From contig JAEUMJ010000020.1 of NCBI GenBank assembly GCA_016792865.1, positions 1 through 34,646 of the forward strand: 34,646 nt of DNA, written 5' to 3'. This stretch comes from Hyphomicrobiales bacterium (GTDB lineage: Bacteria; Pseudomonadota; Alphaproteobacteria; Rhizobiales; Aestuariivirgaceae). Below the pieces are notes generated by a model that worked only from the letters and a program-made list of their open reading frames with translations, made no database searches and was not told where the DNA came from. This document shows, piece by piece, positions 7,018 through 27,463 of the stretch (position 1 is the stretch's first letter; every line of letters begins with the position of its first letter). The translations under genes were made by a program, and so were the position numbers.

Positions 7018-7974
7018 ATGAAAAGCTTTTCCGAACTCACCGAACAGGAAATCCTCGCCCTCGCCATTTCCAGCGAGGACGACGACGCCCGCGCCTACAT
7101 GGGCTTTGCCAATGCCCTGATGGAAACCTATCCGGCCTCCGCCAAGGTGTTCATCGAGATGGCCGAAGAGGAGCACGATCACCGCCGCGCCCTCACCGAG
7201 CTTTACCGCAAGAAATTCGGCGAGTTCATTCCGCTCATCCGCCGCAGCGACATCAATGGCTTTGTGCGCCACAAGCCGGCGTGGACACTGTCCAAGCTCG
7301 GCATCGAGGCCATGCGCCAGCGGGCCGAGGTGGTGGAACTTGAGAACTACCGTTTCTATACCCAGGCCGCCGAGCGCAGCACCGACCCGCAGGTGAAGAA
7401 GCTCCTCGAAACCCTTGCCATGGCCGAAAAGGGACATGAATCCCTTGCCGCGCGACTGGGCGAAAAGCACCTGACCGATGACGCGAAGGAATCCGAAAGC
7501 GAAGCGGAACGCCGCCTGTTCCTGTTGCAGGTGGTGCAGCCCGGCCTCGTCGGCCTGATGGACGGTTCGGTATCGACGCTTGCGCCACTCTTCGCAGCCG
7601 CCTTCGCAACGGGAGATACCTGGGAGACATTCCTGGTGGGAAGTGCCGCGTCCATCGGCGCGGGCATTTCCATGGGGCTCGCCGAGGGCCTGTCGGACGA
7701 TGGCAAGCTGACGGGGCGCGGGCATCCGCTGATCCGCGGCTCCGCCGCCGGCATCATGACGGCGGTGGGCGGCATGGGCCATGCGCTTCCCTATCTCATT
7801 CCTGATTTCACCATCGCGACCTGGGTCGCGATCGTCATCGTCTTCTGCGAACTCTGGGCGATCTCGTGGATACGCTACAAGTACATGGATACGCCCTTCC
7901 TCAAGGCGGCCTTCCAGATCGCGGTGGGTGGTTTCCTCGTTTTCCTGACGGGCATCCTGATCGGGAGTGCCTGA
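7018..7974 (+). CDS. mbfA: MbfA-type membrane-bound ferritin, iron exporter
   Basis: This 318-residue protein combines a rubrerythrin/ferritin-like N-terminal domain (about 1-150) with a C-terminal VIT1/CCC1-like membrane domain (about 170-318). The first domain supplies the di-iron type carboxylate and His ligands, for example EEEHDH and later AEKGHES. The second begins LVGLMDGSVSTLAPLF and has several membrane helices. This fusion defines MbfA, which exports iron from the cytoplasm and protects against iron and peroxide stress in rhizobia. No good Shine-Dalgarno sequence precedes ATG 7018; the message may be leaderless. The upstream Irr-like box suggests induction when iron is plentiful. 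It converges on the aminotransferase-dehydrogenase gene with a 33-bp gap. Confidence 0.94.
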   Translation: MKSFSELTEQEILALAISSEDDDARAYMGFANALMETYPASAKVFIEMAEEEHDHRRALTELYRKKFGEFIPLIRRSDINGFVRHKPAWTLSKLGIEAMRQRAEVVELENYRFYTQAAERSTDPQVKKLLETLAMAEKGHESLAARLGEKHLTDDAKESESEAERRLFLLQVVQPGLVGLMDGSVSTLAPLFAAAFATGDTWETFLVGSAASIGAGISMGLAEGLSDDGKLTGRGHPLIRGSAAGIMTAVGGMGHALPYLIPDFTIATWVAIVIVFCELWAISWIRYKYMDTPFLKAAFQIAVGGFLVFLTGILIGSA

Positions 7975-8007: not shown

Positions 8008-10977
8008 TCAGTCCCCGTAGTACGGACCTTCAAGCCCAAGCGCACGCAGGCGGGTTTGCAGCATGTTCGAGGCCCTGAGCAGGGCAGCGCCGTGGCGGTC
8101 GATCTGGAGCTTCACCATGTCCGCCTGTGAGGTGGAAGACAGGGCCGCAAGGATGGCCGCCACCTCTTCCGCCAGGCCGCGCACGTCGGCGATGGCCTTG
8201 CTGTCGGCAACGGCAGCAACGAGATCGTTCCGCGTGACCTTGCCAACGCCGCTCACCGTGGAAGGTCCGGCATTCACATGGCCTGCGGGCAGGTCGCCCT
8301 TCAGGTTGTGCACGCGCTTGTACTGGATCACGTCGAAAATCTGATCGACGGCCTGCTTGGCACCTTCCACGCGGGAGACATGCTCGGTATCGGCAGCGGC
8401 ATGGGGCAGCAGTTCGATGCGGCCCTTGTATTTTCCTGCCAGCGGCAGGTAGGGCACAAGCGGGCCGGTGAGTTTCTTGCCGGACTTGAAAAGGTCGGCA
8501 TCGATGGCCGCATAGCGGACCTGGCCTGACTTCATCGCCTTGTCGAGCGCCTTCACGTCCACGCACTCGCCACGGTCGTAGTTGAGCAGGATGGCGCCGG
8601 GGTTCAGTTTCGAGAGCACCGAGGCGCCGATCACGCCCGCATTGGCAAAGGTCTTGGTGCGGGGATCGAGGGCACCGAGGCCGGTGTGCACGCTGATGAC
8701 ATCAGCGCCTGTCGCCGCATCTTCCGCCGTGGGGGCAAAGGTGAATCCTTCCGACTCGATCCACACCCGGTGGCGCGGGCGGGCGTGCACCTTCACATGC
8801 ATGCCGAAGCAGGCCGCAAGATGCGCCACTTCACGGCCGATGTTGCCATAGCCGATGATCCCCATGGTCTTGCCTTCCAGCTTTTCGGTGGGGAAGTCCT
8901 TCAGGTCCTTGCCGGTGTCGAAGCGCCCGGCGGCGGAACGCTTGTGCAGCGTTTCCACATCGAGGTCGGGCATCACCTTCAGCAGGGCCTTCATCGTCAT
9001 CTGCGCGGTGGCGCGGCTGTTGAAGCTCGGCGTGTTCATCAGTGGCGCGTCGCCTCCCGCGCCGTTGCCGCCGCCCCAGCAGGCGCACTGCATGTTGCCG
9101 GTGCCCGCGCCGATGCGAACGCCACCCAGCGGAAAGACTGCATCCTTCGGCAGGAAGGTGGCAGCGGCAATCACCGCGTCATACTGGCCCTTGCTGGTGA
9201 TGGGCAGGATTTCCGCCTCGGTCGAAAGGTCGGGCATGTAGAAGAAATGGATCTTGCCCGGTGCATAGGTCTTTTTCGCATTCTGCGGGCCGTCATGGAA
9301 CTCGCCGCCCCTGGCAATGACATGCGCCCGCACGGCGCTGGCATCGGGCTTCTTCTTCTTGTCGAAGCGCAGGCCCACAAGGTCGGCGATCAGCACCTTG
9401 TAGGCACGCGCCGGATCATCGACGCGGGGCAGTGCGGCAGCGGCCTTGGCCGCCGGAATCCGGTGGCCGAGCTTCTCCATCTCCTCCTCAAGCACCAGCG
9501 CCTTGGCGCGCAGGTAGGCATAGGAGAGGTTTTCCGCCAGCGCCGTGATGTCCTTCGTTTCGCGAATGCCGCCGATCCAGGCCCGGTAGTCACCGGGGGT
9601 GCCCGGGAAGGCGTTCACGTAACGGGCCACGTCAAGACCCGGCTCACGCTCGCCGTTGGGATGGGTGAGGCCCTCGACGCCCAGCAATTGCTTGGAGCGT
9701 GCGATGATGCGGGCATGGATGGCGGCATCCGTGATGTCGGCATCGTTGACGCGCAGGAGCGTGACGGCCGCGCCACGGCGTTCTGCTTCCGCCACGCCCA
9801 GCCGGAGAAGCGATTGCCCGGCGATCCATGCATCCAGAGCGGCACGGTTCGCCACCGAGCGGGCGTTCATCTTTTCCACCGGCCCGATCATCTTTGCCAC
9901 GCGCTGCAATCCGAAAGTGGTTTCAGCGAAGGCGAGTGTCGAGAAGGTGTTGATGACGCCACCCAGCATCTTGTCGGAGGAGGGATCATAGAAGGGGCCG
10001 ATGTTCACGCTGCGCTCACCTGAAAGCGGCTTCTTCTGGTCAAGCGGAGTCGCCAGCTTCAATTGGCGCGGGATGGCGGCAAGCGGGGACTTGGCATTGC
10101 GCTCGACCAGCGCAAGCGCCTGCGGCGTGAAGGAGATGACGAAGTAACCGGAAATGCCGCCGATGGCCTTCTGGAACGGCATGAAGAAGCAGCACTTCGC
10201 CGTCACCTTCCTCACCAGTTCGTCGCCCCACGGCATGGCACCGAGCAGAGAGGTGGCGTCGAGCATGGCGTGATGCTCCGCCGGATTGCTGTCGATCCAC
10301 GCCAGAAGGTTCTCGATTTCCTGCCGGGTGTAGGTGGTGGCCCCGGTCGTTTCGTGCCCCACGCCGAAGACCAGCTTCACGCCCTTGTCCTGCAAGAGGG
10401 CGGGAGAGGGAATGCTGCCTTCGCTTTCGGCAAAATGCAGGCGGCTTTCGTCACCCGCCTTCGACAGCCGCATCAGCTCGACGATCTGCGCCCCCCACGA
10501 TTGGCGGAAGAAGCCGCCGGCGGCTGCCGCTTCGCTCTCGGGGCGGGGCGTGTCGATGTAGATCTGCTGTGCCGCATCGGCACCGATCAGGTGAAGGGCG
10601 GCGACCGTGAAGCCGGAATGTCCACCCCCCAGGCCCACGGCCATGCGGTTGCTCTTGGGGAAGCCGAAATAGGAATGGATCTCCCGCATCATGTCGAGGA
10701 TGAACTTGTCGGCGGGGTAGCCGCGATGCATGGAGCGGCCGATCTCCGCCGCCGTGAACGGGCCGATATCCTTGCCGGTGTCATCGAGCTTGCGATAGTT
10801 CTGCTCCAGCCAATGCTCGAACTCGAAGCGCATGCGCCGGGCCTCGACCTCGTCGGCGGCATTGTCGGTGATGGGGCCAACGCCGAAGAACGGATTGCCG
10901 GTGCGGGCGGGCGGGCCTCCTGCCGTTGCGGCAAGGGCGGCGGCGTGCTGGCGCTTCAAGGTGGCGATGTCGGACAT
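8008..10977 (-). CDS. Fusion of SerC-like aminotransferase and SerA-like 2-hydroxyacid dehydrogenase
   Basis: One continuous 989-residue frame encodes two enzymes of the phosphorylated serine pathway type. Residues about 30-480 look like a class V aminotransferase of the SerC kind. LDATSLLG supplies the cofactor-binding Asp (240) and PFQKAIGG the probable PLP lysine (270). Residues about 525-885 look like a D-2-hydroxyacid dehydrogenase: RIGAGTGN, then NTPSFNSRATAQ, the Rossmann motif GYGNIG (709-714), NYDRGE with the catalytic Arg (802) and LPHAAADTEH with the catalytic His (859). The usual acid region reads AIDADLFKSG, so the normal DVFxxEP Glu is not obvious. The last 100 residues are helical and are not an ACT domain. 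SerA normally oxidises 3-phosphoglycerate and SerC aminates the product, so a coupled enzyme is plausible, but the substrate could differ. GGAAAGAG precedes the ATG. Confidence 0.85.
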   Translation of the reverse strand: MSDIATLKRQHAAALAATAGGPPARTGNPFFGVGPITDNAADEVEARRMRFEFEHWLEQNYRKLDDTGKDIGPFTAAEIGRSMHRGYPADKFILDMMREIHSYFGFPKSNRMAVGLGGGHSGFTVAALHLIGADAAQQIYIDTPRPESEAAAAGGFFRQSWGAQIVELMRLSKAGDESRLHFAESEGSIPSPALLQDKGVKLVFGVGHETTGATTYTRQEIENLLAWIDSNPAEHHAMLDATSLLGAMPWGDELVRKVTAKCCFFMPFQKAIGGISGYFVISFTPQALALVERNAKSPLAAIPRQLKLATPLDQKKPLSGERSVNIGPFYDPSSDKMLGGVINTFSTLAFAETTFGLQRVAKMIGPVEKMNARSVANRAALDAWIAGQSLLRLGVAEAERRGAAVTLLRVNDADITDAAIHARIIARSKQLLGVEGLTHPNGEREPGLDVARYVNAFPGTPGDYRAWIGGIRETKDITALAENLSYAYLRAKALVLEEEMEKLGHRIPAAKAAAALPRVDDPARAYKVLIADLVGLRFDKKKKPDASAVRAHVIARGGEFHDGPQNAKKTYAPGKIHFFYMPDLSTEAEILPITSKGQYDAVIAAATFLPKDAVFPLGGVRIGAGTGNMQCACWGGGNGAGGDAPLMNTPSFNSRATAQMTMKALLKVMPDLDVETLHKRSAAGRFDTGKDLKDFPTEKLEGKTMGIIGYGNIGREVAHLAACFGMHVKVHARPRHRVWIESEGFTFAPTAEDAATGADVISVHTGLGALDPRTKTFANAGVIGASVLSKLNPGAILLNYDRGECVDVKALDKAMKSGQVRYAAIDADLFKSGKKLTGPLVPYLPLAGKYKGRIELLPHAAADTEHVSRVEGAKQAVDQIFDVIQYKRVHNLKGDLPAGHVNAGPSTVSGVGKVTRNDLVAAVADSKAIADVRGLAEEVAAILAALSSTSQADMVKLQIDRHGAALLRASNMLQTRLRALGLEGPYYGD

Positions 10978-11126: not shown

Positions 11127-12404
11127 TCAGGCGAGTGCATCCTTGATGCGGTAGTAGAGCATCGCCGCCGCCAGCAGCGGGGTGCGGATCGGGCCGCCGG
11201 GGAAGGGCAGGTGGCGGAAGCGGGCCAGCAGGTCGAAGCGCCCGGCGGTGCCGCGAATGGCCTCGGCCATGAGCTTTCCGTAGATCTGTGCCAGCGCCAC
11301 GCCCTGACCGGAATAGCCATGGGCATAGTAGGTGGTGGGCGAGAGGCGCCCGCAATCGGGAATGCGGTTCGAGGTGATGGCAATATAGCCGCCCCAGGCA
11401 TGCTCGATCTTCACGTCCGCCAGTTGCGGAAAGACGTTCAGCATGCGGGGCCGCATGTAGGCTCCGAGGTCGGACGGTTCCATGGTGGAGTAACTGGCGC
11501 GGCCTCCGAAGAGAAGGCGATGGTCGGGCGTGCGGCGGAAGTAATCGACGATGAAATTGCTGTCGGCCACGGCCTCGTTGTCGAGGATCAGGCTCCGGGC
11601 GCGGGCCTCGCCCAGGGGCTCGGTGGTGATGATGTAGCTTGTCACCGGCATGACCCGGCCATGCAGGGCAGGCACGGTCTTGCCCAGATAGGCATTGCCG
11701 CCGATCACCATGAAGCGGGCCGAGACCTTGCCGGTGGCGGTCCGCGCCCAGGGCGAGGGGCCGCTGTCCACATCCAGCACGCGGGAGTTTTCGTGAATGA
11801 CGGCCCCCGCCTTCACCGCCGCGGCGGCAAGGCCCTTGAGGTAGTTCAGCGTGTGGAAATGACCGGCGCGCGGCTCGCGCATGGCACCGTGATAGAGCGT
11901 GGAGCCGAGTTTCGACTGTAGCGATTGCTTGTCCAGCACCTCACAGCCTGAATAGCCGAGCGCCTCATACTCGTCCCGCCATTCCCGCAGCATGTCCATC
12001 TGCGTCGGCTTGGGGATGCAATGCAGGTAGCCCCACGTGAGGTTGCAGTCGATGCGGTGTTTGGCGATGCGGGCCTCGATCAGGTCTTTCGCTTCCTCGG
12101 CAATGTCGAAGCAGAGCCTTGCATCTGCCTTCGAGACCTGCGTCTCCAGCCGCGCCTGCCCCGGAGAGAAGCCCGTGCACACCTGCCCGCCGTTCCGGCC
12201 CGATGCGCCGGAGCCGATCTTCCCCGCTTCCAGCACCACCACCGACATGCCCGCTTCCGCCAGTTCGAGGGCCGCTGAAAGCCCGGTGAAGCCGCCGCCC
12301 ACCACGACCACATCAGCCGAGGTGTCGCCCGGAAGTGCCCCATAGGTGTCCTGCCGGTTGGCCGTGGCCTCGTAATAACTCAGGTTAATCAGCGATTTCT
12401 TCAT
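11127..12404 (-). CDS. puuB: FAD-dependent amine oxidase, gamma-glutamylputrescine oxidase-like (PuuB)
   Basis: This is a DAO-family flavoprotein of 425 residues. The N-terminal FAD-binding segment is VVVVGGGFTGLSAALELAEAG, followed by EAGKIGSGASGRNGGQV, the typical second signature of the PuuB/OrdL group. HGYSGQGVALAQIYGKLMAE near the C-terminus is the other conserved FAD contact. PuuB oxidises gamma-glutamylputrescine to the aldehyde. The frame is open to 12491, but homologues begin near MKKSLINLSYYE, so I start at ATG 12404. It is divergent from a PuuA-like glutamine synthetase with an 85-bp shared control region, which supports a polyamine or amine breakdown role. No PuuC or PuuD is in the window. 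Confidence 0.82.
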   Translation of the reverse strand: MKKSLINLSYYEATANRQDTYGALPGDTSADVVVVGGGFTGLSAALELAEAGMSVVVLEAGKIGSGASGRNGGQVCTGFSPGQARLETQVSKADARLCFDIAEEAKDLIEARIAKHRIDCNLTWGYLHCIPKPTQMDMLREWRDEYEALGYSGCEVLDKQSLQSKLGSTLYHGAMREPRAGHFHTLNYLKGLAAAAVKAGAVIHENSRVLDVDSGPSPWARTATGKVSARFMVIGGNAYLGKTVPALHGRVMPVTSYIITTEPLGEARARSLILDNEAVADSNFIVDYFRRTPDHRLLFGGRASYSTMEPSDLGAYMRPRMLNVFPQLADVKIEHAWGGYIAITSNRIPDCGRLSPTTYYAHGYSGQGVALAQIYGKLMAEAIRGTAGRFDLLARFRHLPFPGGPIRTPLLAAAMLYYRIKDALA

Positions 12405-12451
12405 GCTTTCAATGCTCTTCAGATGACCCCTTCCGGAACGCTCGGAAACAA

Positions 12452-12463
12452 GGCAATATTGCC
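12452..12463. promoter_or_regulatory. Perfect 12-bp palindrome between puuB-like and puuA-like genes
   Basis: GGCAATATTGCC is its own reverse complement. It sits in the 85-bp region shared by the divergent puuB-like and puuA-like genes, about 27 bases before the puuA ATG. Its position suits an operator controlling both genes. The regulator is not identified. Confidence 0.5.
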
Positions 12464-12489
12464 GAATATCAATAGCATAGCGATCAATC

Positions 12490-13839
12490 ATGAGTCACCC
12501 CAAGTTCGAGGAATACATCACAGGCAACCGGATCAGCGAGGTTGAGTGCCTTGTGGCCGACATGTCGGGCACGGCCCGCGGCAAGATCCTGCCCCCGAAG
12601 AAGTTCCTCAAGGGGCAGCGCAACCGCGGCCTCCGCATTCCCGAAGAAATCTTCACGCTCACCATCAATGGCCGTTACGTGCAGGACACCCAGGCGGTCT
12701 CCGACAGCGCCATCGACGTTTACATGGAGCCCGATGTCGATACGGTGCGCATGGTGCCGTGGTACACCGAACCCACCGCGCAGGTGATCTGCGATGTCTT
12801 CCACCTGAACGACGAGCCGGTATCGATCTCGCCGCGCCATGTGCTGCGCCGCGTCCTGCAGTTGTACAAGGACAAGGGCTGGCGCCCGGTCGTGGCGCCG
12901 GAGCTGGAATTCTATCTGGTGAAGCGCAATCCCGATGCCGACTATCCCCTCGAAGCGGCGGTGGGCCGTTCGGGCCGCAAGGAGCCGGGCGGACAGGCCT
13001 ACGGCATCGACGCCGCCAACGATTTCGATCCCATCGTGGAAGACATCTACGATTACTGCGAAGCCCAGGAACTGGACGTGGATACGCTCTCCCATGAAAG
13101 CGGCCCGGCCCAGCTCGAAATCAACTTCAACCACGGCGATCCGCTGGAACTGGCCGACCAGGTCTTCCTGTTCAAGCGCACGGTGCGCCAGGCGGCGCTG
13201 AAGCACGACATGTATGCCACCTTCATGGCAAAGCCCCATGCCAACGAGCCTGGCTCATCCATGCACATCCACCAGTCGGTGCTGGACTACCGCACGGGCA
13301 AGAACATCTTCTCCGGCAAGGATGGCAAGCCGTCGAAGTATTTCCTCAATCACATCGGCGGCCTGCAACGCTATCTCGCGGCGGCGCTGCCGCTGTGTGC
13401 GCCGAACGTGAACTCCTATCGCCGCCTCGTCCCGGATTCCGATGCGCCAACCAACGTGCACTGGGGCGTTGACAACCGCACCGTGAGCTTGCGCGTGCCG
13501 TCGTCCGACCCGGCAAACCTGCGGCTGGAAAACCGGGTGCCGGGAGCCGACGCAAATCCCTACCTCGCCTTCGCGGCGTCGCTGGCATGTGGCTACCTCG
13601 GCATGATCGAGCGCATCAAGCCCTCCGATCCCGTGGAAGGCTCGGCCTACCGCTATGCCCACACCCTGCCCATCAACCTCGACGAGGCCCTGGACAAGCT
13701 GAACTACACCAAGGCGCTGAAGCAGGTGCTGGGGGAGAAGTTCGTGGAAGCCTATCAAGATGTGAAGTTCGAGGAAATGCAGCACTTCCGCCGTGTCATC
13801 AGTTCCTGGGAGCGGGAATACCTTCTCCTCAACGTCTGA
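12490..13839 (+). CDS. puuA: Glutamine synthetase family protein, gamma-glutamylputrescine synthetase-like (PuuA)
   Basis: The protein (449 residues) has the glutamine synthetase fold. It begins with a short beta-grasp domain (LVADMSGTARGK) followed by the catalytic domain with APELEFYLV, the ligands around ESGPAQLEINF, MHIHQS, NSYRRLVP, and RLENRVPGADANPYLAFAA. The length and the PELEFY variant fit the PuuA/GlnA-like group that ligates glutamate to amines rather than ammonia assimilation GlnA. With the divergent PuuB-like oxidase it would perform the first two steps of gamma-glutamylated amine breakdown. An in-frame TAG lies four codons before the ATG, so the start cannot be much earlier. 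There is no clear Shine-Dalgarno sequence. The true amine substrate is inferred only. Confidence 0.85.
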   Translation: MSHPKFEEYITGNRISEVECLVADMSGTARGKILPPKKFLKGQRNRGLRIPEEIFTLTINGRYVQDTQAVSDSAIDVYMEPDVDTVRMVPWYTEPTAQVICDVFHLNDEPVSISPRHVLRRVLQLYKDKGWRPVVAPELEFYLVKRNPDADYPLEAAVGRSGRKEPGGQAYGIDAANDFDPIVEDIYDYCEAQELDVDTLSHESGPAQLEINFNHGDPLELADQVFLFKRTVRQAALKHDMYATFMAKPHANEPGSSMHIHQSVLDYRTGKNIFSGKDGKPSKYFLNHIGGLQRYLAAALPLCAPNVNSYRRLVPDSDAPTNVHWGVDNRTVSLRVPSSDPANLRLENRVPGADANPYLAFAASLACGYLGMIERIKPSDPVEGSAYRYAHTLPINLDEALDKLNYTKALKQVLGEKFVEAYQDVKFEEMQHFRRVISSWEREYLLLNV

Positions 13840-16453: not shown

Positions 16454-17284
16454 TCAGAAGGTGATGGCTTTGAAGTCGCGGGTCTGCTGCGTCAGCGCCC
16501 GCTCGGTGGGAAGGCGTTCCATGGAACTTGCGCCATAGAAGCCATGAATGCCCTTGGTGTTGCGGAGGATGTAGGCCGCATCGTCGGGTGACGAGATCGG
16601 GCCGCCATGACACAGGATGATCACGTCCTTGCGCACCCGCCGCGCCGCATCGGCGATATCGGCAATGAGGGCAGGGCAATCCGCAAGCTTGAGCGCGGTT
16701 TCCGCTCCGATGTTGCCGCCGGTGGTAAGGCCCATGTGCGCAACGATGATGTCGGCACCGGCCTTGGTCATGGCGGTGGCCTCGTCGGGCGTGAAGACAT
16801 ATGGGGTGGTGAGCATGTCCTTGGCATTGGCCGCAGCCACGAGATCGACCTCAAGGCCGTAACCCATGCCCGTCTCTTCCAGGTTCTTGCGGAAGAGGCC
16901 GTCGAACAGGCCCACTGTGGGGAAATTCTGGATTCCGGCAAATCCGAGTGCCTTCAATTCATCGAGAAAGTGATCGCGGATCATGAAGGGATCGGTGCCG
17001 TTGACCCCCGCCAGCACCGGCGTGTGCCTGACGACCGGCAGAACCTCACGGGCCATTTCCTTCACGATCTCGTTGGCATTGCCATAGGCGAGAAGACCGG
17101 CAAGCGACCCCCGGCCTGCCATGCGATAGCGCCCGGAGTTGTAGATGACGATGAGGTCGATGCCGCCGGCTTCCTCGCAGCGGGCCGAAAGGCCGGTGCC
17201 GGCACCCCCGCCGATGATCGGCTTCTTCTGCCCGATCATGTCACGGAAGTGGGCGAGAAGGGCCTTGCGAGTTGGCTTGGTCAT
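16454..17284 (-). CDS. Phosphoenolpyruvate hydrolase-like TIM-barrel protein
   Basis: This 276-residue protein matches the TIM-barrel family named phosphoenolpyruvate hydrolase-like. It has [13 protein letters not shown] near the N-terminus, [44 protein letters not shown] and a C-terminal [14 protein letters not shown]. This domain forms the C-terminal half of the plant protein Tm-1, while the N-terminal half is the UPF0261 domain encoded by the gene just upstream. The ATG overlaps the stop of that gene by 4 bp (ATGA), which indicates translational coupling and likely a complex. The true reaction of the bacterial proteins is not established; the PEP hydrolase name derives from distant similarity. 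Confidence 0.85.
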
Positions 17285-18492
17285 GATGTCTCCTGGTTGA
17301 TCTCCCGGAACGCCGCGACGACAGCAGCGGCAAAGGCGGGATCATTGATGTTTGCGTCAAGCCTGATGAGCTTGCGCCGTGATGTGGGCCGGAAGGTTTT
17401 CTCGATCGCCGCAAAAAGGGCCGCATCGGCTTCGGGGTCGTGGAACGGCTTGCCCTCCGCATCGATGGCCGATACCCCACGCAACGGCAGGAAGAAGCGC
17501 ACCGGCCCTTCCATGCGGTTCAGGCGCTCGGCAATCCATGTGCCGATGGCGGCATTTTCTTCAGGTGTCGTGCGCATCAGTGTGACGAAGGGGTTGTGGA
17601 TGTAGAAGGTCCGGCCCTCGAACCGCGCGGGCACCGTATCGCGGGCGCCAAAGTTCACCATGTCGCAAGCGCCCACCGAACCGATGTAGGGAATGCGACG
17701 GCGGATGATGGCGCCGAAGCGGTCCTCGGTGCAGGGAAGAACGCCGCCGGACAGGAAATCTGCAACTTCCGTGGTCGTGATGTCGATTGCGGAGGTGAGG
17801 AGGCCGGAGTCGATCAGCTTCTCGAAACACTGCCCGCCCGTGCCGGTGGCATGAAACACGAAGCAGTCATGGGTCTGTTCCAGTTCGCTGCGAATCTGGG
17901 TGACGGCTTGTGTGGTGACGCCGAACATGGTGAGGCCGACGGCAGGCCGCGTCACGTCGGGCAGCGGAATGTCATTCAGCACCATGCCAGCGGCAGCATG
18001 GGCGGCATTGCCGATCACCTTGCGCGTCACGCTGTTGAGGCCGGCCACATCCGCCACCGCATGCATCATCATGATGTCGCTTGCCCCGACGAAGGGCGCG
18101 ACATTGCCGGAGGCAAGGGTTGAAACCATGATCTTGGGCAGCCCCACGGGCAATGCCCGCATGGCCGTGGTGACGATGGCGGTGTTGCCGGAACCGCCGA
18201 GGCCAAGCACCGCGCCCACGTCGCGCTGTTCCAGCAGGTAAAGGGTGAGGGCGGTGGCCATGGCCGAGACGGCCGCACCGCGATCGGTGAGGCCCAGCAC
18301 GGCGGGCGTGCCACCGGGATGATGGGCGGCCACATCGGCTGCGCTCACATCCGCATCTCCGGCGTGCGGCGTCGTCGAAACATCGACGAGCCTCGCCCGT
18401 GCCCCTGCGCCGCGGACAAGGTTTGCGGCATAATGCAGTTCCTCACCCTTCGTATCGAGGGTGCCGATCACATAGACCGTTCCGCTTGCCAT
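17281..18492 (-). CDS. Tm-1-like ATP-binding domain protein (UPF0261)
   Basis: This 403-residue protein belongs to the UPF0261/Tm-1-like family. The N-terminus reads [17 protein letters not shown], with the GTxDTKGEE signature that forms the nucleotide site. It is followed by the glycine-rich [16 protein letters not shown] and the conserved [18 protein letters not shown] and [16 protein letters not shown] blocks. In tomato, the fused homologue Tm-1 binds ATP and blocks tobamovirus replication; the native metabolic role in bacteria is unknown. The ATG lies three bases after the stop of the epimerase gene, and its own stop overlaps the next ATG. This order places it at the core of the operon. 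Full length, no defects seen. Confidence 0.87.
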
Positions 18493-24376: not shown

Positions 24377-27300
24377 ATGAACTCCTTCCGCGCCAGCCAG
24401 CGCAGCAGTCCCGTCACCGCTGTCCTTGGCCCCACCAATACAGGCAAGACCCACCTCGCCGTCGAACGCATGCTGGCCCATGGCGGCGGCATGATCGGCT
24501 TGCCGCTGCGGCTCCTGGCCCGCGAGATCTATGATCGCGTCCGGCTGCGGGCCGGCGATCATGCGGTGGCGCTGGTGACGGGGGAGGAAAAGATCATTCC
24601 CGCCCAACCCCGCTATTGGGTGTGCACGGTCGAAGCCATGCCTCCCGGCGTTGACGTGCCGTTTCTCGCCATCGATGAAATCCAGCTGGCCAACGATCTG
24701 GAACGGGGCCACATCTTCACCGACCGGATCCTGCACCGGCGGGGCATCGACGAAACCATGCTGCTCGGCGCCTCCACCATGCGGGGCATCCTGGAAAAGC
24801 TCCTGCCGCGCACCAATTTCGTCTCGCGCCCGCGTCTCTCAAAGCTCACCTATGCCGGGCAGAAGAAGCTCACGCGCCTGCCGCGCCGCTCGGCCATCGT
24901 CGCCTTCTCGGCGGAGATGGTCTACACCGTCGCCGAGTTGATCCGGCGGCAGCAGGGCGGTGCCGCCGTGGTGATGGGGGCCCTTTCGCCGCGCACGCGC
25001 AATGCCCAGGTCGCGCTCTACCAGTCAGGTGATGTGGACTATATTGTCGCCACGGATGCCATCGGCATGGGCCTCAACATGGATGTCGATCATGTGGCCT
25101 TCGCGTCCACCCGCAAGTTCGACGGCTTCCAGTTCCGCCACCTCACGCCCGCGGAACTGGGGCAGGTGGCCGGACGGGCAGGACGCTTCCTGAACGACGG
25201 TACCTTCGGCGTCTCAGGCGAGGCCGAGCCTTTCGAGCAGGAGGTGATCGACCGGCTGGAGAACCACCATTTCGATTCCGTGAAGGTCCTGCAATGGCGG
25301 AACCGGGAACTGGATTTCCGCACCCTCGACACGCTTCGCAAGAGCCTGGGCCACCTGCCGAAACAGGAGGGCCTGACCAGGGCCCAGAACGCCCCCGATG
25401 TTGAGGCGCTGGAGGCCGTCTGCCGCGATGAAAGCGTGCGCAGCCTCGTCGGCTCGGCGCAGGACGTGGAACGGGCCTGGGAGGCCTGCCAGATTCCCGA
25501 CTACCGGAACATCTCGCCTGCCGAACACGCCCACCTTGTGGGCCGGGTCATCACCTTTCTCCAGACCGGCAAGGGTTTCATCCCGGAGGACTGGTTCTCC
25601 CAGCAGCTTGCCCATTGCGACAACGTCGAAGGCGGCATCGACACGCTCTCCACCCGCATTTCCCACGTCCGGACCTGGACTTTCATCGCCAACCGCTCGG
25701 ATTGGCTGGAGGCCCCGCTGTACTGGCAGGGGCGGGCCAAGGAGATCGAGGACCGCCTTTCGGATGTCTTGCACGAACGCCTTACGCATCGTTTCATTGA
25801 CCGCAAAACCAGTGTATTGATGCGGCGGCTGGCCAAGAAGGAAGGTTTGATGTCGAGCGTTGAAGAAGATGGCGTGATTGCCGTGGAAGGTGAGGCAATC
25901 GGCAAGATCGCAGGTTTGAGTTTCGTGGCTGACCCTGCCGTTGCGGGGAGCGAGACCCGCTTGCTGAAGACCGCTGCGGTTCAGGCCCTGGCTGCCGAAG
26001 TGACGGCGCGGGCCAAATCGCTTTCGGCAACAGCGGATACGGAATTGAAGTTGTCACGCCTCGGCTTCATCGAGTGGCAGGGCCATCCGGTTGGCCGCCT
26101 GGTTGCCGCCGATGCCCGCTTCCGCCCGCGTGCCGAAGTGATTGCCGATGATGTGCTTCCGCCCGCCGACCGTGAATTGGTGCGGGAGCGGCTGCAGAAA
26201 TTCGCAGAGCGCCATATCGCCTCCCTCATCGAGCCACTGATGAAACTGGAAGAGGCGGAGGGTTTCGAGGGCCTGACGCGCGGCATTGCCTATCGTCTCG
26301 CCGAAAACCATGGCGTCCTGCCACGCGATGGCGTGGCGGAAGAGGTGAAGCAACTGGGCCAGGATGATCGTGCCAGATTGCGTGCGCTGGGTGTGCGTTT
26401 CGGTGCCTTCACCCTGTTCCTGCCTGCATTGTTGAAGCCTGCGGCCACGGATGTGCGCCTGCTTCTCTGGTGGCTGGAGCAACAGAAGCAGGGCACGGTG
26501 ACGGGTGACGTTCCGGCGGCCCCCGCGAACGGCCTGACCTCTGCCACCGCCGACACCAGCAAGCCCGAAGGCTTCTACCGCATGTGCGGCTACCGTCTGT
26601 GCGGGCCGCGCGCGGTGCGCGTCGACATGCTGGAGCGCCTGTCGGATCTCATTCGCGACCGCGTGTTCTGGAAGCCGCGCTTCCCGGAGGACGTGCGCCC
26701 GCAGGGTGCAGTTGAGGGCGGCGGCTTCACCATCGTGCCGGACATGATGTCGCTCGTCGGTTGCTCCGGCGAGGAGTTCGAAGCAATCCTGACGAGCCTG
26801 GGCTTCCGGGCACAGAAGAAGATGTTGCCCAAGCCAGCCACGCCCGGCGCGAAGGGTGCGCCCGCTGCAGTGGCGGAGGTTGTGGCTGTGGCGGTTGCGG
26901 AGGGCGCCGCGGACGTGCCGGAAGGTGCGGCGGCTGAAGCCCCTGTCGCTGCTGCGGCCGACGAAACTCCTGCCGTGGACGCCGCTGCCCCCGACGGGGC
27001 GGCTGAGGGTCCGGCGGCGGAAGCCGCGCCTGCCGCCGAGCCTGCCATTGCGCCTGTCGCCGCGCCTGAGGTGGAACTCGTCGAAACCAACGTCTGGTGG
27101 CCGGAAGGAATGGGGCCATTCCGCCAGCAGCGCCACAGGCCCGCCCATCGCGGCAACCGCCCGGAAAGCGCCGGCCCGGAAGGCACCCGCCAGGAGGGGG
27201 CAGGCGACGGCAAGCCGGAGGGCAAGCGCCACCATCGCCATGGCAAGGACCGCAATCAGGACGAACGCAACCGCGGCCCCCGTGGCAAGGGTGGCAAGCC

Positions 27301-27463
27301 CGGCGGCCCGCGACGGGACGAGCACCGTGATGACCGCCGGGATGACCGCCGCGACGACCGCAATCGCGACAAGGCGCCGCGCCGTGAACGTCCGGCGGAT
27401 CCCAACTCGCCCTTTGCCGTTCTCGGGGCGCTGAAGGCGCAATTCGAAAAGGAAAAAACCTGA
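24377..27463 (+). CDS. Suv3-like DEAD/DEAH-box RNA helicase with low-complexity tail
   Basis: This 1028-residue helicase resembles mitochondrial Suv3, an RNA helicase acting with RNA-degrading enzymes. Visible motifs are Walker A GPTNTGKT (18-25), DEIQ (100-103), the motif III-like LLGASTMRG, ATDAIGMGLNMD and QVAGRAGR (motif VI), followed by the Suv3-type C-terminal region. From about residue 816 the sequence turns low-complexity: first an Ala/Pro/Glu-rich stretch (to about 905), then a His/Arg/Asp/Gly-rich tail with repeated DDRRDDR-like units, ending in a short ordered-looking segment FAVLGALKAQFEKEK. The tail is probably disordered and RNA-binding. The gene order helicase, S4 protein, fdxA, carD recurs in Hyphomicrobiales. 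Its stop overlaps the start of the S4 gene. Confidence 0.9.
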   Translation: MNSFRASQRSSPVTAVLGPTNTGKTHLAVERMLAHGGGMIGLPLRLLAREIYDRVRLRAGDHAVALVTGEEKIIPAQPRYWVCTVEAMPPGVDVPFLAIDEIQLANDLERGHIFTDRILHRRGIDETMLLGASTMRGILEKLLPRTNFVSRPRLSKLTYAGQKKLTRLPRRSAIVAFSAEMVYTVAELIRRQQGGAAVVMGALSPRTRNAQVALYQSGDVDYIVATDAIGMGLNMDVDHVAFASTRKFDGFQFRHLTPAELGQVAGRAGRFLNDGTFGVSGEAEPFEQEVIDRLENHHFDSVKVLQWRNRELDFRTLDTLRKSLGHLPKQEGLTRAQNAPDVEALEAVCRDESVRSLVGSAQDVERAWEACQIPDYRNISPAEHAHLVGRVITFLQTGKGFIPEDWFSQQLAHCDNVEGGIDTLSTRISHVRTWTFIANRSDWLEAPLYWQGRAKEIEDRLSDVLHERLTHRFIDRKTSVLMRRLAKKEGLMSSVEEDGVIAVEGEAIGKIAGLSFVADPAVAGSETRLLKTAAVQALAAEVTARAKSLSATADTELKLSRLGFIEWQGHPVGRLVAADARFRPRAEVIADDVLPPADRELVRERLQKFAERHIASLIEPLMKLEEAEGFEGLTRGIAYRLAENHGVLPRDGVAEEVKQLGQDDRARLRALGVRFGAFTLFLPALLKPAATDVRLLLWWLEQQKQGTVTGDVPAAPANGLTSATADTSKPEGFYRMCGYRLCGPRAVRVDMLERLSDLIRDRVFWKPRFPEDVRPQGAVEGGGFTIVPDMMSLVGCSGEEFEAILTSLGFRAQKKMLPKPATPGAKGAPAAVAEVVAVAVAEGAADVPEGAAAEAPVAAAADETPAVDAAAPDGAAEGPAAEAAPAAEPAIAPVAAPEVELVETNVWWPEGMGPFRQQRHRPAHRGNRPESAGPEGTRQEGAGDGKPEGKRHHRHGKDRNQDERNRGPRGKGGKPGGPRRDEHRDDRRDDRRDDRNRDKAPRRERPADPNSPFAVLGALKAQFEKEKT

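Follow-up and report, generated by a model that had tools for sequence, protein, structure and literature searches.

Proteins that join phosphoglycerate dehydrogenase (PGDH) and phosphoserine aminotransferase (PSAT) in one chain are described for oomycetes, brown algae and Thecamonas in passages of two reports (PMC2705460 section 12; PMC5715807). According to these passages, the dehydrogenase precedes the aminotransferase in the eukaryotic fusions, their PGDH half clusters with animal PGDH, the PSAT half of the stramenopile proteins is of the SerC_2 type, and P. infestans has no other PSAT gene. Here we analyzed a bacterial gene that combines the same two superfamilies in one chain in the reverse order. 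It lies on contig JAEUMJ010000020.1 of a Hyphomicrobiales bacterium (assembly GCA_016792865.1), of which positions 1 to 34,646 of the forward strand, 34,646 nucleotides in total, are called the window below. In contrast to P. infestans, the genome of the window carries normal serC and serA genes besides the fusion. Because of the reverse domain order and the different active-site features, we take the bacterial family for a fusion of divergent relatives that is independent of the eukaryotic ones. A literature search covering few subscription papers found no description of the bacterial fused family. The superfamilies are known; their pairing and the subfamilies are apparently new.

The gene forms a single unbroken frame of 989 codons plus a stop at window positions 8008 to 10977 of the minus strand, with the ATG at 10977 and the stop at 8010-8008, as seen from the frame translation and from orthologues. 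On the plus strand the same frame at these positions is interrupted by stops. The original prediction of one 989-codon frame with both domains was thus borne out, and the frame could be placed from start to stop. All features of the gene given below lie on the minus strand. Residues 1-512 (9442..10977) constitute a class V, SerC-type aminotransferase dependent on pyridoxal 5'-phosphate (PLP), and residues 521-903 (8269..9417) a D-2-hydroxyacid dehydrogenase (2HADH). They are followed by a helical tail of residues 904-989 (8011..8268), which is missing in dehydrogenase-only forms of about 390-400 residues and in one fused copy (L098). In profile comparisons, the alignment of the first half covered residues 4-372 of the genome's own SerC, which has 375 residues (probability 96.1); that of the second half covered residues 22-315 of its own SerA, of which 416 residues were available (probability 98.8). 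Likewise, SerC models of NCBIfam match the first half, and PGDH-like and other 2HADH models the second, all of them far below their cut-offs. The scores were 37.8 against 448.2 bits for TIGR01365 and 48.3 against 477 bits for PRK03080.1-2 among the SerC models; for the dehydrogenase half they were 82 against 454 bits for the best model, TIGR01327 (PGDH), 62.8 against 434 bits for PdxB, and 46.6 against 492 bits for GHRB PRK15409. The Pfam scan placed PF02826 (2-hydroxyacid dehydrogenase, NAD domain) at residues 675-826 and gave no match to an ACT domain up to E = 1, in line with the absence of this domain noted earlier.

The gene belongs to a conserved family. A scan of GTDB genomes returned 26 loci, 25 of which are family members; in the remaining one (L044) the match is limited to a stretch of the dehydrogenase half with 32% identity. 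Complete or nearly complete fused frames were found at 23 of the 25 loci, in addition to a gene cut by the contig end (L042) and a dehydrogenase-only gene (L043). Fused homologues with a best-segment identity of 58-90% occur in alphaproteobacteria, betaproteobacteria (Nitrosomonas) and gammaproteobacteria (Oceanospirillaceae and an Osedax symbiont). When the 61 genomes nearest to that of the window, itself included, were searched at E 1e-60, 37 had a match, and 35 of these lie in the genus of the window's genome, which is represented by 37 genomes. In a sample of 398 genomes over the phylum, the family was present in 8, again including the window's own. A plasmid collection held 31 records with at least 80% of the fused protein at one place. 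With the aminotransferase half alone, 42 plasmid records were found, 36 at 60-80% identity and 6 at 22-27%, five of the latter being annotated as phosphoserine trans- or aminotransferase; given this gap in identity, the family is discrete in that collection. Across 11 distinct ortholog pairs, in some of which synonymous change is near saturation, dN/dS ranged from 0.034 to 0.106 in the aminotransferase half, from 0.035 to 0.135 in the dehydrogenase half and from 0.026 to 0.28 in the tail. Both enzyme halves are under strong purifying selection. Since fused homologues exist in three proteobacterial classes and both halves are under such selection, the fused gene is no sequencing artefact: a joining of two frames by a sequence error is contradicted by 23 of the 26 GTDB loci. 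Taken together, these data directly support a real protein of one chain with two recognizable folds, a SerC-derived and a SerA-derived enzyme domain; that one of the two might be unrelated to SerC or SerA was not borne out.

The active-site residues were assessed in an alignment of 40 fused homologues, to which all counts out of 40 refer, and in a further alignment (A4) of 18 rows, 8 of them dehydrogenase-only. The PLP lysine, the Rossmann motif and the catalytic Arg and His of the original prediction are indeed kept. In the aminotransferase half, the Schiff-base lysine K270 (10168..10170; 40/40) aligns with the QK of E. coli SerC, and D240, W161, N343 and T344, which also align with E. coli SerC, are invariant as well. 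The pair H84-R85 (10723..10728; 40/40) aligns with the genome's own SerC and with SHRG of the E. coli enzyme. In AtPSAT1, the matching pair and a second one (H396-R397) bind the phosphate of phosphoserine, according to passages of PMC6043687. The second pair has no clear counterpart in our alignments, with R452 (40/40) nearby; at this position the genome's own SerC_2 has Tyr-Arg in our reading of the alignments. The half thus shares the class V fold, the PLP residues and the first His-Arg pair with SerC_2-type phosphoserine transaminase (TIGR01365) and E. coli SerC; however, it is about 140 residues longer and forms a separate clade. In a tree of 46 rows, a long branch with support 100/100 splits the family from three SerC_2-like rows.

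The dehydrogenase half has the D-2-hydroxyacid dehydrogenase fold in common with SerA, with a dinucleotide-binding GYGNIG at residues 709-714 (8836..8853), the catalytic Arg R802 (8572..8574) and the catalytic His H859 (8401..8403), the last two invariant in 40/40 fused and 18/18 A4 rows. E804 and D863 are likewise invariant in the fused rows. In contrast to SerA, the family lacks the Arg-Ser motif, the NAD-selecting Asp, the catalytic Glu and the ACT domain, and forms its own clade. Passages of PMC6303947 report that SERA and PDXB enzymes carry an Arg-Ser motif in the b3-a3 loop, the Arg binding phosphate in SERA structures, and that an Asp in their bB-aD loop goes with NAD. In the window's protein, A604-A605 (9163..9168) takes the place of this Arg-Ser and aligns with IRSAT of the genome's own SerA and LRSRT of E. 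coli SerA; the position reads Ala-Ala in 35 rows, Thr-Ala in 3 and Val-Ala in 2, and Arg-Ser in 0/40. Similarly, the NAD Asp is replaced by A732-R733 (8779..8784) in 40/40 fused rows, and in A4 position 732 is Ala in 16 rows and Ser in 2, with Arg at 733 in 18/18. The resulting cofactor loop, ARPRHR in the window's protein and ARPRH(R/K) in the family, resembles NARRHHKE of E. coli GhrB, which is without the NAD Asp too and prefers NADPH according to passages of PMC6303947. GhrB-type NADPH-dependent glyoxylate/hydroxypyruvate reductases nevertheless differ from the family, which scores far under their cut-off, has lost the catalytic Glu and is joined to a transaminase. As the original prediction had noticed, AIDADLFKSG stands where this Glu is expected: the alignment sets ADLFKSGK against VFEVEP/VFPTEP, and the loop D826-A-D828 (8494..8502) contains no Glu, both Asp being invariant in 40/40 rows. 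Section 9 of PMC6303947 describes an active SERA type IIIK enzyme that is also without it, so that 2HADHs lacking the Glu can be active. In a tree of 60 rows, long branches with support 96/92 part the family from the own SerA and five other dehydrogenases of the genome; in the trees of both halves, the deeper branching order is unsure owing to long outgroup branches. A CxC-Gly-rich insertion claimed before the NTP block stood only in part. The cysteine pair C631-A-C633 (9079..9087) is present, although in 4/40 rows only, and the Gly-rich stretch is hardly an insertion, since its 28 residues from GxG to NTP are only about 5 more than the 23 counted by eye in the own SerA.

We also asked how the fused protein relates to the housekeeping serine pathway. 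The genome of the window has an ordinary serC (647.6 bits) and an ordinary serA (572 bits), both over cut-off and adjoining on contig C191, which answers the question whether the two occur separately in the genome. Family genes were found in 42 genomes, and 36 besides the window's own were searched: serC was over cut-off in 34 of them (exceptions G013 and G023), and serA also in 34 (exceptions G023 and G033). Both domains of the fused protein fall into clades of their own, far from the genome's SerC and SerA. The presence of separate serA and serC and the loss of the SerA phosphate motif and of the NAD Asp are direct observations. They suggest that the fused protein is distinct from the housekeeping serine pathway and has another job than making serine. 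The idea of a fusion of two steps of serine synthesis thus holds as to SerC and SerA ancestry, but its serine role is made less likely by the separate genes, the scores under cut-off and the motifs missing in 40/40 rows. Of the two options offered for its mechanism, channelling of 3-phosphohydroxypyruvate is the less likely, and a different substrate the likelier.

What the protein does is suggested by its residues. We give about even chances to an accessory bifunctional enzyme combining a transaminase with a 2-oxo acid reductase, an estimate that excludes the substrates of the alternatives weighed below, serine breakdown being a special case judged apart. The N-terminal aminotransferase would remove the amino group of an amino acid and leave a 2-oxo acid; the retained H84-R85 pair favors an amino acid whose side chain is anionic. 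The C-terminal dehydrogenase would then reduce this 2-oxo acid, with NADPH as the probable cofactor, and yield a 2-hydroxy acid. The net conversion of an amino acid to a 2-hydroxy acid would be reversible in principle, and the 2-oxo acid may be handed between the tethered active sites or may simply be present at high local concentration. We infer NADPH use, direction, coupling of the halves and substrate from the sequences. The NADP-type loop speaks for reduction, since almost all wild-type oxidizing 2HADHs use only NAD+ according to passages of PMC6303947. The order of aminotransferase then dehydrogenase, correctly described beforehand as opposite to pathway order, fits the reductive direction from amino acid to hydroxy acid; as evidence for this direction it is weak. 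A more detailed version, to which we assign slightly less than even chances, is a tethered NADPH-dependent transaminase-reductase of new SerC-like and new 2HADH subfamilies, with a rebuilt acid-base site in which Asp-828 or Asp-863 would stand in for the Glu, and with a substrate outside the serine pathway. Several observations weigh against a transaminase-reductase. With the catalytic Glu gone and D828, D863 and E804 as mere candidates for its place, the reductase might work slowly or catalyze a different reaction, and the cofactor call rests on two residues, A732-R733. Entries named PGDH are among the best matches of the dehydrogenase half, and R621, conserved in 40/40 rows, falls on a SerA arginine in the hhalign alignment. 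Moreover, genomes with the reductase alone have no relative of the transaminase, so that the halves need not share one substrate, and outside the genus an immediate neighbor gene is shared only by close pairs.

The likeness to PGDH and PSAT would suit a second serine-pathway enzyme with channelling, working in either direction on 3-phosphoglycerate, 3-phosphohydroxypyruvate and phosphoserine. For the dehydrogenase half, TIGR01327 is the best NCBIfam model, and PGDH-named structures lead both the PDB profile search (3gg9, 9jcm) and Foldseek (1wwk). By fold, SerC is the nearest match of the aminotransferase half, the best solved structure being that of M. tuberculosis SerC; the phosphate-binding His-Arg pair of PSAT is kept, R621 aligns with the Arg of RAGIGVDN of the genome's own SerA, and PGDH-PSAT fusions exist in stramenopiles. 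However, the Arg-Ser motif and the NAD Asp are replaced, the catalytic Glu is gone, the scores are far under the equivalog cut-offs, and separate serA and serC are present in the same genomes, which makes such an enzyme unlikely in our view. We rate a little lower a role in serine breakdown, in which serine would be converted via hydroxypyruvate to D-glycerate and feed a glycerate kinase. The GhrB-like NADP-type loop would fit this role, as would 5tx7, the best single-sequence PDB match of the dehydrogenase half, which section 19 of PMC6303947 places in the hydroxypyruvate-reducing GHRC group, and a glycerate 2-kinase gene 70 bases downstream of the family gene on the same strand in L037. This kinase was seen in 1 of 46 mapped loci, whose flanks are of unequal length, and L034, a close relative of L037, has a tRNA-Arg gene at the downstream position. 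Furthermore, a His-Arg pair of the SerC type points to an anionic side chain, 5tx7 is no longer the best match with the family profile, and the Asn-Lys motif that the same section gives for the b3-a3 loop of GHRC is missing, the window's protein reading AAAT. W634 is conserved in 40/40 and W739 in 39/40 rows; the alignment to 5tx7, with its pocket Trp 135 and 288, spans chain residues 90-263 only.

Two further explanations are improbable. Passages of PMC9997740 state that E. coli SerC doubles as PdxF, and the fused protein might be a PdxF-PdxB pair for vitamin B6, with 4-phosphoerythronate dehydrogenase and 4-phosphohydroxythreonine aminotransferase activities. In the genome, pdxJ exceeds its cut-off and no PdxB does, and a dehydrogenase core to which an aminotransferase is optionally joined would agree with such a role; yet the Arg-Ser motif and the NAD Asp of PdxB are missing in the fused family, the unrelated enzyme PdxR performs this step in Sinorhizobium meliloti, and the family occurs in only 8 of the 398 sampled genomes. 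Marginally less probable still is a dehydrogenase half that is no longer redox-active and serves as a regulator or scaffold, as CtBP partly does, which would make the protein in effect an aminotransferase or a sensor. The missing Glu and the presence of CtBP among the top fold matches would agree with this, whereas the invariance of R802 and H859 in fused and A4 rows, the persistence of the dehydrogenase alone and the activity of some 2HADHs without this Glu (PMC6303947 section 9) argue against it.

Forms lacking one half bear on the relation between the two activities. A dehydrogenase-only form was found in seven genomes of the genus (G003, G013, G014, G015, G021, G023 and G033; 82-100% complete), and a search with the aminotransferase half found no relative in 7/7 of them. 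Frames with the aminotransferase half and without a whole dehydrogenase half are rarer. One of 582 residues in Ensifer adhaerens ends early in the dehydrogenase half. An aminotransferase-only paralogue of 610 residues lies 53 bases downstream of the fused gene in L019 (11015-12844, plus strand) and in L087 (2912-4741, minus strand), so that the GTDB locus L019 and the locus L087 from genome G004 share the same tandem arrangement. This paralogue keeps the PLP lysine and the His-Arg pair and has a very long branch (1.06), which suggests that the fast-evolving protein may have acquired a new function. Since the dehydrogenase also occurs without the transaminase, it seems to be the core of the protein, with the transaminase as an added activity.

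The genes next to the family gene were surveyed in the 46 mapped loci. In the window, the fused gene is convergent with a gene for the iron exporter MbfA (7018-7971, plus strand; 511.4 bits against a cut-off of 450). An MbfA gene adjoins the family gene, or is one small open reading frame off, in some of the loci mapped in the genus and its near relatives, both beside the fused form (window, L020, L036, L039, L040, L088, L098) and beside the dehydrogenase-only form (L043, L082, L083, L084, L086). In other members of the genus the family gene lies elsewhere, for example beside an M20 peptidase gene (L089, L092, L094, L096, L097). The upstream same-strand gene of the window, an FAD oxidoreductase 152 bases off, stands beside the family gene otherwise only in L039, and a GcvT/sarcosine-oxidase-like gene upstream in Paracoccus aminovorans is not repeated elsewhere. 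The neighbor genes do not name the pathway, and single hints are unrepeated.

Some further arrangements were recorded. At window positions 11130-13836, a divergent pair encodes an FAD-dependent oxidase (minus strand) and a glutamine-synthetase-like protein (plus strand), whose models are under cut-off; in our reading, the pair may resemble gamma-glutamylation and oxidation of amines. In Nitrosomonas, a protein of 474-476 residues is encoded 44 bases after the fused gene on the same strand (L028, 3989-5410; L030, 11021-12448; both plus strand); neither Pfam (E 1e-4) nor NCBIfam (E 1e-6) gave a match for the L030 copy. A tatC-serS-surE run precedes the dehydrogenase-only gene in three genomes of the genus (L080, 5083-9164; L081, 5059-9139; L085, 6762-11186), the gaps after surE being 6, 6 and -1 bases, respectively. 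Elsewhere in the window, a PEP_hydrolase-like gene adjoins a UPF0261 gene (16457-18492, minus strand), and a protein of 1028 residues (24377-27460, plus strand) begins like a Suv3-type helicase at its N-terminus, whereas Pfam gave no match past residue 271 at E 0.001.

For annotation, it matters that among the plasmid records listed, NAD(P)-dependent oxidoreductase is the only name given to fused members for which a gene is listed, a name that hides the whole aminotransferase. Annotated instead as SerC-SerA, the fused protein would be assigned to serine synthesis by pathway tools, probably wrongly. Should the protein be a transaminase-reductase, nature would have a compact way of turning an amino acid into a 2-hydroxy acid; with both architectures beside the same iron-exporter gene within a single genus, it would then be directly testable how coupling was gained or lost.

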